64,000 nucleotides of DNA from Nitrospina sp. GTDB taxonomy: Bacteria > Nitrospinota > Nitrospinia > Nitrospinales > VA-1. The position numbers were made by a program, and so were the translations under genes. Below, piece after piece: positions 52,072 to 59,396 of the stretch. Within the stretch, counting starts at the first letter, position 1. Every line of letters starts with the position of its first letter. The DNA is taken from contig JABIAY010000075.1 of NCBI GenBank assembly GCA_018653085.1, forward strand, positions 1 to 64,000. Reading direction: 5' to 3'. Under the pieces are notes generated by a model. The model saw only the letters and a program-made list of their open reading frames with translations. It was not told where the DNA came from and did not search any database.

Positions 52072-53022
52072 ATGCTAAGCAAATGCATCTTCTCCGTTAA
52101 AGCCCCTGCCGGACCCCCGGTTGAAATCATCCGCCACACTTTTAGCCCCTCGCAATCCGCCAAACCGACCCAACGCGTCTCACTGGTTACCGGACTGCAC
52201 GGCGATGAACTGGAAGGACTGTATATTTGCCACCGGCTAATAGAAACGCTGAAGAAACTGGAAGAACAAAACGCGGTTAAAGGAGAAGTACATATTTACC
52301 CGGCAGTGAACCCGCAAGCTCTCGAAACGGGAACCCGGCTGTGGCCCTTTTTTTCCACCGACATCAACCGCACCTTTGGTGAAAAAAATACCCGCTCTCT
52401 AGTCACTGAGGCTTCGAGAACCCTGTTGGAAGATTTAAAATCCAACTCCGATCTGGTGGTCGACTTCCATGCCAGCAACCTCCACCTTATGGAACTGCCG
52501 CAAATCCGCATTATCAAGAATTTTGAAAAAAAACTGGTCCCACTGGCCAAACTTTGTAATGTCGATCTGATCTGGGTCCACCCTCATGCAGAGATTTTCG
52601 AATCCACTCTGGGTTACAACCTGAACCAGGCCAAAGTTCCCACACTGGTCATCGAAAGCGGAATCTGCCTGCGTATCCACAAAAATTATTGCGAGCAGAT
52701 CGTTCTGGGCATCCTCAACCTGCTCCACCAAACCGAGGCGGTCGATTGCGGCGAGTTTTTAGCAGAAGTCGCACCAGCCAGAATAGTGCAACCCGATCAG
52801 GTGACTATGGTCCAGGCGCAAAATGCGGGGTTATTCGTCAAACAGACAGAAGTGGGACAAATATTAAAAGAAGGAGAAAAAATCGGCGACCTGATAGGCC
52901 CTGACCAGATGCCAGAAGACATCCGTTCTCCCTGCTCCGGCTTGTTATTCACCCTGCGGGAACATCCGCTCACCGGGAAAGGTGCGCCGCTGGCCCGTAT
53001 CGCCACCTCTATTGAACCATGA
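52072..53022 (+). CDS. M14/AstE-ASPA-family deacylase (zinc ligands intact)
   Basis: TGLHGDELEGL (HxxE), VVDFHASNLHLMELP, TLVIESG, SGSR-equivalent ETGTRLWP; C-terminal barrel-sandwich-like region. Confidence 0.88.
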   Translation: MLSKCIFSVKAPAGPPVEIIRHTFSPSQSAKPTQRVSLVTGLHGDELEGLYICHRLIETLKKLEEQNAVKGEVHIYPAVNPQALETGTRLWPFFSTDINRTFGEKNTRSLVTEASRTLLEDLKSNSDLVVDFHASNLHLMELPQIRIIKNFEKKLVPLAKLCNVDLIWVHPHAEIFESTLGYNLNQAKVPTLVIESGICLRIHKNYCEQIVLGILNLLHQTEAVDCGEFLAEVAPARIVQPDQVTMVQAQNAGLFVKQTEVGQILKEGEKIGDLIGPDQMPEDIRSPCSGLLFTLREHPLTGKGAPLARIATSIEP

Positions 53023-53978
53023 AAGAAAAAGTCCTCTCCATTCCAACTCCGTTCGGTGCCCCGTTGGTCCTTTATAAAAACACCTGGGGGAAATCCGATC
53101 ACTCCGAAACCCTTGCCATCGTCAGCGGCCTGCACGGCGACCATTTGAACGGAATGCACCTGAGTTCACGCCTGTCCCAGTTTCTCGATAATATAGTCGA
53201 AGGCAGTGACGCCAACTACACCCTCAATGGTCAGGTCATCATCTTCCCCGTTGTTAACTTGAACGCCATTCAATCCGGTTCCCGGTTATGGCCGTATGAT
53301 GGCATGGATATGGACCTGGCTTTTCCCGGCAACCCGGCAGGCGAAACCACCGAAGCCCTGGCCTCAGCCGTTCTCAAGCATACGGTCAATGCCGACTGGG
53401 GCATCATCCTGCAATCCGCTCTACCGCATTATGAAGATGCCCCGCATATCCAGACCTTGAAGATGGATGGAAGCATCAAAAAGTTGGCCCGCGATCTGAA
53501 AATAGAAACCGTGCGAAAATTGCAGCCATCGCCCCAAGTCAACTTGTCTTCTCACTGGCAGGACATGGTGAGCGTCACCCTGTCGTCCGGATCGCCCCGA
53601 ACCCTGAACCTGCCGCAATGCGAATCCCTTTTTCAAGGCATCGTCAACTTCATGCAGGCCGAAGGGATCCTGAAAGACAGAAGAAAAACAAAGTCCGATA
53701 AAAACTTTCCAACCCGGTTTTATCAGCCCGAAAATGAAGTCACCGTTCTTGCCGACACAGCAGGAATGTTTCTGCACGAAGTGAAAGTGGGAACCCTCAT
53801 CCAAGAGGGACAAACGATCGGGGAAATCAGAGACCTGTACAGCGGCAAACGATTGGAAGAAATCACCGCCCCGGCAGATGGGTTTCTGGTAACGCTCAGG
53901 CAATACCCCATCGTTTATGAGAAAGAATCCCTTGCCACCATCCTGACCACAAAAAAATCGTGGTGGGATATTTTTTAA
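53019..53978 (+). CDS. M14/AstE-ASPA-like paralog, predicted pseudoenzyme
   Basis: Collinear with previous CDS (SGLHGDHLNGM, FPVVNLNAIQSGSRLWPYDGMDMDLAF) with substituted zinc/catalytic positions; 4-bp overlap. Confidence 0.85.
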   Translation: MKEKVLSIPTPFGAPLVLYKNTWGKSDHSETLAIVSGLHGDHLNGMHLSSRLSQFLDNIVEGSDANYTLNGQVIIFPVVNLNAIQSGSRLWPYDGMDMDLAFPGNPAGETTEALASAVLKHTVNADWGIILQSALPHYEDAPHIQTLKMDGSIKKLARDLKIETVRKLQPSPQVNLSSHWQDMVSVTLSSGSPRTLNLPQCESLFQGIVNFMQAEGILKDRRKTKSDKNFPTRFYQPENEVTVLADTAGMFLHEVKVGTLIQEGQTIGEIRDLYSGKRLEEITAPADGFLVTLRQYPIVYEKESLATILTTKKSWWDIF

Positions 53979-54621: not shown

Positions 54622-55359
54622 GTGGACAGCACCAAACCCCTTAAAGAACTGGTTATTAACCAGGAAAAAACCGGCTACCGTTATTCTATCGAACCGTTCC
54701 TGCTGGCCGATTTCATGTCCCTTTTGCCCGGCCAGTCGGTGCTGGATATCGGCACCGGTTGCGGCATCATTCCTATATTGCTGGCGCAGGGAGAACCGAC
54801 CCTCAAAATAACCGCCATTGAGATTCAAGATACGGCGCAGGCGCAAAAAAATATTCAGCAAAACGGCATGGACAAACAAATCTCTCTCATTCACGGTGAC
54901 TTTCTGGAGGAAGCACTGAAACCCGAATCTTTTGACCATATTGTTTCCAATCCGCCTTACCGGAAAATCCAGACAGGACGGATCAATCCCGATGCAGGAA
55001 AAGCCCTGGCCCGGCACGAACTGTCTCTCAGCATGAGTTCCCTGCTGGACAAATCTGCTCCCCTGCTGAAAAAGGGAGGCCAGATCAGCCTTGCCTACCC
55101 GCCTGAGCGGATGAGCGAAACCCTGCGAGAACTGGAATGTCGGAACCTGTATCCCCGTATCGCCCGTTTCATTCATGGCAATTTCCAGACTCCGGCAAAA
55201 ATCTTTCTGGTCTCTGCCCTTAAAGGAAAAAAATCCGATTTTACCGTCGCCCCGCCACTTGCGGTCTATAATGAGGACGGAACTTATTCAAAGGAGATGG
55301 GGCAAATTTATGCTTCCTTTAATTATACTGACCGGCCCAACGAATTCGGGGAAAAGTGA
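54622..55359 (+). CDS. TrmN6-like methyltransferase (NPPY motif), GTG start
   Basis: VLDIGTGCGIIPILLAQ, FDHIVSNPPYRK. Confidence 0.88.
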   Translation: MDSTKPLKELVINQEKTGYRYSIEPFLLADFMSLLPGQSVLDIGTGCGIIPILLAQGEPTLKITAIEIQDTAQAQKNIQQNGMDKQISLIHGDFLEEALKPESFDHIVSNPPYRKIQTGRINPDAGKALARHELSLSMSSLLDKSAPLLKKGGQISLAYPPERMSETLRELECRNLYPRIARFIHGNFQTPAKIFLVSALKGKKSDFTVAPPLAVYNEDGTYSKEMGQIYASFNYTDRPNEFGEK

Positions 55360-58300
55360 AACCGCTCTGGCCCTGGCCCGGAAGCTGGACACCGAAATCA
55401 TCAGTGCCGATTCCATGCAGGTCTATAAATATTTCGACATCGGCACCGCCAAACCCTCGCGGTCGGCAAGGGAGGAAATTCCTCATCACTTGATCGATAT
55501 TCTTGACCCGGATGAAGAGTTTAACGCTTTTGATTTTAAAGTACGGGCCCTGAAAATCATCCATGAACTCATGGATCGTGATAAAATTCCTATACTGGTT
55601 GGCGGCACCGGACTGTATATAAAAGTCCTGGCCGAAGATTACGATTGTGCAGAAGGAGGTTCTCCTGAAATCCGGGAAAAAATCCGGCAGGACATCCGCG
55701 ATCAGGGCGTTGAAGAAGTATACCGGGAACTTCAGCGCATAGACCCCGAGTACGCCGCAAAAATTTGCGCAACAGATTCCCTGCGCATCGAACGCGCTTT
55801 AGGAGTTTATCTGGATACCGGAAAACGTTTTTCAGAATTTCACGATGGCGACTCCCCGGCCCCAGGTCGGTTCCCCATCCACACTTTTATTTTGGAGAGA
55901 GAACGGGCGGAGCTGTATTCCCAGATCGATCAGCGGGTGGATAAAATGATCGAGGACGGATTAGCCAATGAGGTGCAAAGCATTTTAGAAAGTGGCTACA
56001 GCCCCGAACTGAAACCCTTCAAAAGCATCGGTTATGCACAAATGGTTCAATATCATCAAGGCAATTTGACTTTAGACCGCGCGGCCTATGAAATTAAAAG
56101 AGAAACCCGGCACTACGCCAAAAGACAGTTGACCTGGTTCAGAAAAATGAAAAACACCCAACCCCTGCCAGCAAACCCAAAAGACACTGCCGAATCCCTG
56201 CGAGATAAATTGCTCTCCCTCCTGCCCAAAGTGTCCGCCTGTTTTCTGGCACTTTTCCTGAGCGTTGCGCAAACAGGTTTCGCTGAAAACACAGACCAGC
56301 ACTATGAGGAAGCTAAAAATCTTTTTCAGAAAAAGGAATGGGCCAAAGCTAAAAACAGCCTTCTGGCCCTGCAAAACCATTCGCCCGATTCTGTGGAAGC
56401 CAAACGCGCCCGGTTTTTACTCGCCCTCATTCACCAGGAACAGGGAAAACCGGAAGAGGCCATAAAGCTTCTCGAACCATTGAGCAAAAATTATGAGGCC
56501 GTGGAAGACTACATTCGCTTCCATTTAATCCAGGCAGAGGTGCAATCCAAAAAATATAAGGAGGCTCAGGAAAATGCCCTGAAACTCCTTCAGCACAACC
56601 CCAAAACCCTTCTCTATCCCAGAGTTCAGTTGGTTCTTGCGGAGGCTCAAATTCAATTGGGGGAAAAAGAAGCAGGAATAAAAACACTGGAAGAAACCAT
56701 CCAGACAACTACCAGGAATTTCAAATACCAGAAATTTCGCGAATTTCTTCCTGAAATGATTTTCAAACTGGCCGAAATCCAGGAGCAGTCAGGAAAACAA
56801 ACAGAGGCTTATCTGAACTTTCGCCAACTTCACATCCAATACCCAAACCATGATCGAACGCCCACAGCTGAAACAGCACTCGAACGTCTTTCGGCTTTAA
56901 AAACGGTTAAAGAGATTCCTCTTACTTTGAGGGAACATACCGATCGCATCCAGGGACTGTTTGAGAACGTCCGCTATAAAGAAGCCATTCAGGAAATCCT
57001 GGAAATCCAGAAGAAGGACAACCTTGTACCGGGGCGATTTTATTTTTTCCTCGCCCAGGCACAGAGGGGATTGAGGGACCGCAAAAAAGCCAACGAAGCT
57101 TTGAATCAATTTCTGAAACTTTATCCCCACCACGCCAAGGTGCAAAATGCCAAGTTCAACATCGGCAGAAACCTTTGGAACCTCGGCCGACCCATGGCGG
57201 GAGCTAAATATTTCCTAAAAGTTACCAAGGAGGCTCCTTCTTCAGAACTTGCGGTGAAGGCACAGTTTTTTCTTGGAAAAATTTATGAAGAACAAAAAAA
57301 CTTTCCCGAAGCCCTGAAGAATTACAAGGCCGCTTTGAAAAAATACCCGCAGGAATATTACGCGCATTGGGCCGGTTGGCGTTTGGGTTGGATTCATTAT
57401 CTCGATGGGAAATTCGAAAAAGCATTCAACCGATTTCAGGAAGCGGCTCACCGATCTCCTGATGGAGACTTTATCGAATACAACCTGTACTGGGGCGCCA
57501 AGTCCGCAGAAAAAATGGATAAAAAGGATGTGGCGCGCGATTTATACGCCAAAGTTGCTGAGTTTTATCCCTACACGTTTCACGGCATTCGCGCGAAAGA
57601 CAGGCTCCTCGCCCTTGGTGTCAACCCCCTCACACAAAATCAAACTCAACCTTCATCTGTGGAAGAAAAAGACCGTCAACTCGGCCGACCTCTCAGCACA
57701 CGGGAAAAGTTTCATTACACTCGGGCAAACGAACTGGCTAAACTTGGATTGACGCAGGAAGCACGCAATGAAATCGGCGAATTGCAGAAAACGGTGCGCA
57801 AAAATCTGACCGGGGTTTTGTGGCTTTCTCATCTTTATCATCAGGCTCAGGGCTATGCGGAATCCCTCAAGCTTTTGCATTTATATAAAGATTTCACCAC
57901 CAAACCCAAAGAAAAAAATCTTTCAGAAAAATTCTGGAAGCACTTCTTCCCTCTCGCTTATGAAGAAGCCATTTTGGAATATACCAAATACCGTAAGGTG
58001 GACCCCTTTTTCGTAAACGGAATCATCCGCCAGGAAAGCCTTTTTGACAGTCAGGCGCTCTCCCCTGCCGGGGCCCGCGGCCTCATGCAAATCATGCCGG
58101 CAACCGGGAAAAAGCTTTACCCGAAAACAAAGTTGAAAAAACCTTTTGATACCGATGCCCTCTTTGATCCTGAACTGAATATCCGGCTTGGAGTGAAATA
58201 CGTCAGCCAGTTGAATAAACGGTTCGGCAAAAACGGCATGCATATCCTGATTTCATACAACGCGGGGCCCCATGTCCTGAAAAAATGGTTGAAACGATTC

Positions 58301-58420
58301 GGACATTTGAGCGATCAGGATGTATTCATAGAATCCATCCCCTATCCGGAAACCCGCCGCTATGTCAAACATGTGCTGAGAAATCTGGGCATCTACAAGG
58401 CACTTTACTCTCCCTCCTGA
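55310..58420 (+). CDS. miaA: Fusion ORF: tRNA dimethylallyltransferase (MiaA) followed in-frame by TPR plus SLT lytic transglycosylase (the 55175 start in the ORF track lies inside the upstream gene)
   Basis: MLPLIILTGPTNSGKSETALALA, ISADSMQVYKYFDIGTAKPS, ILVGGTGLYIK, HYAKRQLTWFRK (MiaA); then VSACFLALFLSVAQTGFAEN, TPR units, and IIRQESLFDSQALSPAGARGLMQIMPATGKKL..SYNAGPHVLKKW (SLT). Confidence 0.9.
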   Translation: MLPLIILTGPTNSGKSETALALARKLDTEIISADSMQVYKYFDIGTAKPSRSAREEIPHHLIDILDPDEEFNAFDFKVRALKIIHELMDRDKIPILVGGTGLYIKVLAEDYDCAEGGSPEIREKIRQDIRDQGVEEVYRELQRIDPEYAAKICATDSLRIERALGVYLDTGKRFSEFHDGDSPAPGRFPIHTFILERERAELYSQIDQRVDKMIEDGLANEVQSILESGYSPELKPFKSIGYAQMVQYHQGNLTLDRAAYEIKRETRHYAKRQLTWFRKMKNTQPLPANPKDTAESLRDKLLSLLPKVSACFLALFLSVAQTGFAENTDQHYEEAKNLFQKKEWAKAKNSLLALQNHSPDSVEAKRARFLLALIHQEQGKPEEAIKLLEPLSKNYEAVEDYIRFHLIQAEVQSKKYKEAQENALKLLQHNPKTLLYPRVQLVLAEAQIQLGEKEAGIKTLEETIQTTTRNFKYQKFREFLPEMIFKLAEIQEQSGKQTEAYLNFRQLHIQYPNHDRTPTAETALERLSALKTVKEIPLTLREHTDRIQGLFENVRYKEAIQEILEIQKKDNLVPGRFYFFLAQAQRGLRDRKKANEALNQFLKLYPHHAKVQNAKFNIGRNLWNLGRPMAGAKYFLKVTKEAPSSELAVKAQFFLGKIYEEQKNFPEALKNYKAALKKYPQEYYAHWAGWRLGWIHYLDGKFEKAFNRFQEAAHRSPDGDFIEYNLYWGAKSAEKMDKKDVARDLYAKVAEFYPYTFHGIRAKDRLLALGVNPLTQNQTQPSSVEEKDRQLGRPLSTREKFHYTRANELAKLGLTQEARNEIGELQKTVRKNLTGVLWLSHLYHQAQGYAESLKLLHLYKDFTTKPKEKNLSEKFWKHFFPLAYEEAILEYTKYRKVDPFFVNGIIRQESLFDSQALSPAGARGLMQIMPATGKKLYPKTKLKKPFDTDALFDPELNIRLGVKYVSQLNKRFGKNGMHILISYNAGPHVLKKWLKRFGHLSDQDVFIESIPYPETRRYVKHVLRNLGIYKALYSPS

Positions 58421-58421
58421 C

Positions 58422-59396
58422 ATGAAATCAAAAGTCCATTTACAAAAATTAGAAGAGTATTCGCTCACCAGAGTGGAACAGTTTGTCCAGAACTCGCTGG
58501 AAGTCCTGGACCCTGAGGCATCCATGTTCCATCCGGACCATAAGGTCCTTTTGAAACCCAACCTTTTAAGAGGTTTCAAACCCGAACGCTGTGTCACCAC
58601 CCACCCTGTGGTGGTGGAGGCCGTGTGCCGCGTTCTCAAGGATCGATCCGTCAATCAAATCGTTATCAGCGACAGTCCTGCTCTGGGCAGTTTATCGGCG
58701 GTGGCTGACAAAGCCGGGTATGGCCCGCTGGAAAAAAAATACGGGGTTAAAATCCTACCCTTGACCGACCCCATCCCTTTTGAAAATGAAGAGGGCGTTC
58801 CGCATCTAAAGATAGCCGGTTGCCTGAAACAATATGACCGAATCATTAACCTGCCGAAGGTCAAGTCTCATTGCCAGATGACAATGACGCTGAGCATTAA
58901 AAATCTGTTCGGACTGGTTATCGGCAAACGCAAACCGGTTCTTCATTGTCTGGTCAAAAACGACAAGATAAAGTTCGGGAAAATGTTGATAGACATAGCC
59001 CGGCATGTCGACCCCTGCCTTACAATCGTGGACGGCATTCAGGCCATGCAGGGGCAAGGTCCGCTCAATGGAACCGCCTACCCCCTTGCAGTGATGGGTG
59101 CATCAACAGACATGACTGCTCTCGACCGGGTTTTTGCCGATCTCTTAAACATACCCCTGGACAAGGTTTACGCCCTGCAAGCGGCGAGGCTCAAACAATT
59201 TGGTCAGTTTGATTTAGAGCATATAGAGATTTCAGGCCCTGCGGATTACAGGTCACTCGCTGTTGAAGATTTCGAACAGCCTTACCCGATAGATATTTCT
59301 TTCAATCCTGCTCACCTGCTCAAATCATTCTGCAAACAGTTTCATGAACTGGTAATCAAAGAACCCCGGCGAGCCGCCGGTGGCAGTGGGCAATAG
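58422..59396 (+). CDS. DUF362-family protein
   Basis: VLLKPNLLRGFKPERCVTTHPVVVEAV, IVISDSPALGS, INLPKVKSHCQMTMTLSIKNLFGLVIGKRK, IVDGIQAMQGQGP. Confidence 0.9.
   Translation: MKSKVHLQKLEEYSLTRVEQFVQNSLEVLDPEASMFHPDHKVLLKPNLLRGFKPERCVTTHPVVVEAVCRVLKDRSVNQIVISDSPALGSLSAVADKAGYGPLEKKYGVKILPLTDPIPFENEEGVPHLKIAGCLKQYDRIINLPKVKSHCQMTMTLSIKNLFGLVIGKRKPVLHCLVKNDKIKFGKMLIDIARHVDPCLTIVDGIQAMQGQGPLNGTAYPLAVMGASTDMTALDRVFADLLNIPLDKVYALQAARLKQFGQFDLEHIEISGPADYRSLAVEDFEQPYPIDISFNPAHLLKSFCKQFHELVIKEPRRAAGGSGQ

Follow-up and report, generated by a model that had tools for sequence, protein, structure and literature searches.

In the analyzed window, a stretch of 64,000 nucleotides from Nitrospina sp., a single open reading frame on the forward strand (55310-58420) extends from an ATG at 55310 to a TGA stop codon at 58418-58420 and encodes 1036 aa, with no stop in between. 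Pfam assigns to this frame an IPPT domain at residues 37-279 (E 2.6e-83), followed by TPRs and then by an SLT domain at residues 888-1004 (96.7 bits, E 8.8e-28). The sequence AAGGAG lies ahead of the ATG, at 55291-55296; another ATG at 55175 merely extends the open frame upstream, and homology begins at 55310. The frame is preceded by a gene for a small-domain methyltransferase (Pfam MTS, 54622-55359), which ends 50 bases into miaA in a different frame, and is followed by a DUF362 gene (58422-59396), which begins directly after the fused stop. These three genes look like one operon. A tandem pair of AstE/AspA-type deacylase genes, the second being the weaker match, is located at 52072-53978.

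Residues 1-279 (55310-56146) constitute the MiaA catalytic domain, a tRNA A37 dimethylallyltransferase, which was recognized by Pfam, by the NCBIfam MiaA equivalog model TIGR00174 (303.9 bits against a cutoff of 148.65, model positions 1-283 of 288) and by a Foldseek match to E. coli MiaA (2zm5/3foz, TM 0.81 on target). The domain contains the P-loop GPTNSGKS and has its C-terminal boundary at ...KRQLTWFRK. Residues T11, K15, S16, D34 and Q37, together with KRQ/TWF, are invariant in 20 aligned fusions. Judged by these features, the MiaA half looks functional, and dimethylallyltransferase activity is predicted for it. The fused gene is the sole miaA in the window genome, and its product is far from the size of a stand-alone MiaA (~300-360 aa), as the frame encodes 1036 aa versus 310-362 aa in unfused relatives.

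The second half resembles a lytic transglycosylase. The predicted mature Slt begins with a helical/TPR superhelix (residues 326-887, 56285-57970), delineated by Pfam TPR matches and by a structure model whose pLDDT is mostly about 90 in this part. It continues into the SLT catalytic domain (residues 888-1004, 57971-58321; Pfam and alignment), in which E909 (58034-58036) falls, in the alignment, on the glutamate that is exchanged in the E503Q structures of P. aeruginosa Slt. Both E909 and the YNAGP motif (Y983-P987) are invariant in 20 aligned fusions. With these two elements the protein has the SLT domain expected of a family 1 lytic transglycosylase; the signal peptide of that family is not N-terminal here but internal, behind MiaA. 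Foldseek matched the Slt half to Slt70 (TM 0.58 on target), and this half, too, looks functional from its conserved residues. In the structure model, both halves are mostly confident with intact domain folds, and residues 307-327 are of low confidence. An NCBIfam lytic transglycosylase model (NF047373) matched below its cutoff, with an alignment starting at residue 311, within the hydrophobic segment.

The window genome is a draft of 78 contigs, and an assembly or sequencing error might have joined two genes. We searched the genomes of the family and the order; the order comprised 65 genomes, 60 of which contain a contig reaching across the junction. The junction is open in all 61 loci from these 60 Nitrospinales genomes, which cover four families and 36-100% identity to the window, and no genome of the order with an assembled junction lacks the fusion. 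Many of these genomes are independent assemblies, the named records comprising Nitrospina and other Nitrospinales/Nitrospinaceae MAGs. A stop codon between the domains, which the sequence-only reading had advised seeking in orthologs, occurs in none of the 61 junction-spanning loci, and a sequencing error or missed stop at the junction is ruled out by these open loci. As the stop-free junction recurs in 60 genomes from many independent projects, the chance that an artifact created the joined frame is negligible. The MiaA-Slt fusion in the window is therefore confirmed as genuine, and the initial proposal of MiaA and Slt in one frame with an embedded signal-peptide-like segment is borne out by Pfam, NCBIfam and the 61 loci. 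In one of the five remaining genomes (G002), a contig end interrupts the locus, and no MiaA match was obtained in the other four (G007, G011, G021 and G052). A full fused-Slt ortholog was likewise not found in these four, so that both halves are missing together (gap or loss); a different Slt-like paralog (L213) is present in G052. One genome (G006) has two fused miaA-slt copies (L023 and L087) on separate contigs, both open, which reflects either a mixed bin or a duplication.

Outside the order, the two genes are separate. Ten further genomes of the class encode a complete MiaA that ends normally, with an open frame of 310-362 aa. An slt ortholog lies directly downstream of miaA in seven of these 10 genomes, several of which have it overlapping the end of miaA in a different frame, and slt is located elsewhere, away from miaA, in the other three (G047-G049). 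The outgroup Slts have their own N-terminal signal peptide, and most of their genes begin with an ordinary ATG, some with a Shine-Dalgarno-like sequence. Separate genes in relatives, which the sequence-only reading had regarded as evidence against a true fusion, are thus found in other lineages of the class but not within Nitrospinales. Because the outgroups have overlapping or adjacent miaA and slt, we infer that the fusion arose when such neighboring genes were joined, the stop codon of miaA and the start codon of slt being lost. In a MiaA tree, 57 fused rows lie together on one side of a single branch (SH-aLRT 99); the fast tree-building method and several long branches restrict what can be read from it. 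This topology agrees with a single fusion event. Another phylum, the one with the Syntrophobacterales locus L196, contributed 142 genomes with a MiaA, and none of the long frames checked among them is a C-terminal fusion. Three long MiaA frames (G094, G097 and G164) were rejected as fusions: their extra frame is upstream of MiaA in GC-rich DNA, and the C-terminus is normal.

At the junction, the MiaA C-terminal strand and helix occupy residues 280-307 (56147-56230; alignment and model), with the strand modeled at residues 283-287 and the helix at 294-304. This segment (D-x-P-E-x-L-x-x-K-I/L-L) resembles the usual tail of unfused MiaA, and its basic end appears to serve also as the internal signal's n-region. 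It is followed by a hydrophobic core at residues 308-320 (VSACFLALFLSVA, 56231-56269), which was defined from an alignment of 61 sequences. The aligned core is free of D, E, K and R in all 61 and is preceded by at least one K or R. The c-region QTGFA (56270-56284) comes next, and signal peptidase I is predicted to cut after A325 (Ala at -1, a small residue at -3 and an unrestricted -2). The distance from KRQ[LI]TWF[RK]K to the LP motif is 29 residues in 59 of 61 sequences. The linker core is under purifying selection, and the junction evolves as a coding sequence does, with dN/dS values of 0.12-0.29 in genera g1, g9, g16 and g7 and saturation in g4. In genus g7 (G027-G034), the hydrophobic core is fast-evolving (dN/dS 0.79), unlike in the rest of the order. 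We also considered a lipoprotein processed by signal peptidase II and rejected it: a lipobox-like motif is present in only 16 of 61 sequences, at the start of the core, and 15 sequences have no Cys there.

A secreted Slt could also be made separately from MiaA, or from the fusion, if a second ribosome started or restarted near the junction. The sequence-only reading had proposed the in-frame TTG at 56210-56212 and GTG at 56231-56233 as such starts. Their positions are right (L301 and V308, respectively), yet neither codon is conserved, TTG being found in its column in six of 61 loci and GTG in four, and no Shine-Dalgarno-like sequence precedes any of the window's internal candidates. No start codon near the junction is common to all 61 loci; nine loci (in g4, g7 and g14) lack any ATG, GTG or TTG between MiaA and the onset of the core, and eight have none up to mid-core. 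The best case for such initiation is residue 280, the commonest start-like codon, which is present in 40 of 61 loci (35 ATG and five GTG), including the window, with ATG common in g1, g9 and g16. A start at this residue would make the signal peptide 46 residues long, with an extended n-region. Synonymous-site conservation, which might betray a hidden start, shows no consistent rise across genera. Given the unconserved codons, the nine start-free loci and the missing Shine-Dalgarno-like sequences, internal initiation is not the conserved mechanism, and the starts suggested earlier are not supported. We regard internal initiation as an improbable source of the secreted enzyme, although lineage-specific use of codon 280 may occur.

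We then asked whether the hydrophobic segment is better described as a cleaved signal or as an anchor. A first scan for small-x-Ala in the c-region, with shuffled c-regions as the control, was positive in 57 of 61 sequences; this result is weak because shuffled c-regions also average 43.6 of 61, and the scan, being too loose, was replaced by a blind test in which the last Ala of the c-region was taken as -1. Among the 59 sequences of this test, with counts that ignore kinship, a small residue is found at -3 in 51, at -2 in 20 and at -4 in 28; Pro is common both at -4 and at -6. Small residues at -3 and -1 with a free -2 are the signal peptidase I pattern. A strict small-x-Ala site is present in 53 of 61 sequences and at least once in 14 of 15 genera, and a looser site in 60 of 61 sequences and all 15 genera. 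The strict pattern is found in 13 of 14 sequences of the window's genus. Genus g7 is the weakest, with a strict site in three of eight sequences and V/T-x-G otherwise in the five that fail. In control sets, small-x-Ala was counted in 0 of 29 MrdA signal anchors, five of 12 TolA/TonB-like anchors and 20 of 30 TolB signal peptides. The window genome encodes two S26-family signal peptidases.

The main rival is an uncleaved bitopic protein, in which a permanent signal anchor would keep MiaA in the cytoplasm joined to Slt in the periplasm and might link tRNA modification with wall turnover. Tethering of MiaA to the membrane had been raised earlier, and it fits as an alternative insofar as the basic N-side and the uncharged core suit an N-in topology. 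The whole order retains the fusion, and bitopic proteins whose N-terminal domain in the cytoplasm is large are familiar, among them ToxR, CadC and GspL. However, an anchor needs no small-x-Ala at -3/-1 with an unrestricted -2, yet the c-region keeps one; the MrdA anchors from the same genomes have no strict site (0/29), and the homologous outgroup Slt has a normal signal peptide. The conserved small-x-Ala site thus appears to favor cleavage over tethering, and we consider a permanent anchor unlikely, if still the most serious competitor.

Our preferred reading is a natural polyprotein of two enzymes, in which MiaA would stay in the cytoplasm and Slt would be exported by the internal signal and cut off by signal peptidase I (probability roughly 0.62). 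Behind it stand the fused frame, its order-wide conservation, the constraint at the amino acid level, the lack of conserved internal starts and the signal features observed here; translocation, cleavage and the fate of the hydrophobic stub are what we infer from them. One mRNA frame starting at 55310 would be translated into a MiaA-Slt precursor, the MiaA part of which would fold in the cytoplasm. The native MiaA C-terminal helix, with its basic end, would serve as the n-region for the former Slt signal peptide, the Slt start codon presumably having been lost in the ancestor of Nitrospinales, at the joining of the neighboring genes. The internal signal would then insert into the Sec translocon in an N-in/C-out orientation and deliver the TPR/Slt half to the periplasm, where cleavage by signal peptidase I between A325 and E326 would yield a soluble Slt. 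MiaA would be left with a short hydrophobic C-terminal tail and would be either membrane-bound or trimmed later. There is a slight chance of some other fate, namely that another protease cuts the junction, or that the protein stays cytoplasmic with its Slt half acting elsewhere; the uncharged core in 61 of 61 sequences and the invariant SLT catalytic residues argue instead for export of an active enzyme.

Fusions across compartments are rare because the product must be sorted to two places, and this one, which supplies the sole MiaA of the window genome, has persisted while a whole marine order of nitrite oxidizers, Nitrospinales, diversified. Nature thus provides a clean case for testing whether a signal peptide can function, and be cut, behind a folded cytoplasmic enzyme of 300 residues. 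More tentatively, a membrane-tailed MiaA, obligatorily co-produced with the wall hydrolase across the order and released from a polyprotein split by signal peptidase, might place A37 modification at the membrane and tie it stoichiometrically to Slt export. The fusion is also a warning for annotation: predictors of N-terminal signals would miss the exported Slt, and the name 'MiaA' alone is readily given to the product.

No description of a MiaA-Slt fusion was found in the literature searched. A lytic transglycosylase-epimerase fusion, XAC4296, has been reported in Xanthomonadaceae (PMC9143381); it likewise joins a lytic transglycosylase to another enzyme domain and is confined to one lineage, but its partner is an epimerase rather than MiaA, and the text of that paper does not mention a signal peptide. 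Compared with ordinary MiaA (TIGR00174; E. coli 2ZM5/3FOZ), the Nitrospinales protein shares the whole domain, the P-loop, IPPT, the C-terminal strand and helix, and a score over the cutoff; ordinary MiaA ends ~35 residues past KRQxTW, whereas the fusion continues for ~730 residues more. With the Slt70 family (1QSA; P. aeruginosa Slt 6FBT), it shares a helical superhelix followed by a C-terminal SLT domain with the catalytic Glu in RQES; it differs in that the fused Slt has no start of its own and an internal signal peptide, and identity in the fold alignment is only 16-19%. A precedent for the arrangement is FbcH (cytochrome b/c1) of Bradyrhizobium japonicum, a polyprotein whose internal signal peptide is cut by signal peptidase. 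As in FbcH, two proteins are encoded in one bacterial frame with no conserved internal start, and an internal n-h-c signal carries small residues at -3/-1 (53/61 strict, 60/61 loose); cleavage is predicted for the Nitrospinales fusion. The two halves of FbcH are subunits of the same membrane complex, whereas MiaA and Slt are unrelated enzymes that differ in compartment and pathway. The principle is known from FbcH, and what is new and unusual here is an internal-signal polyprotein that joins unrelated enzymes of two compartments.
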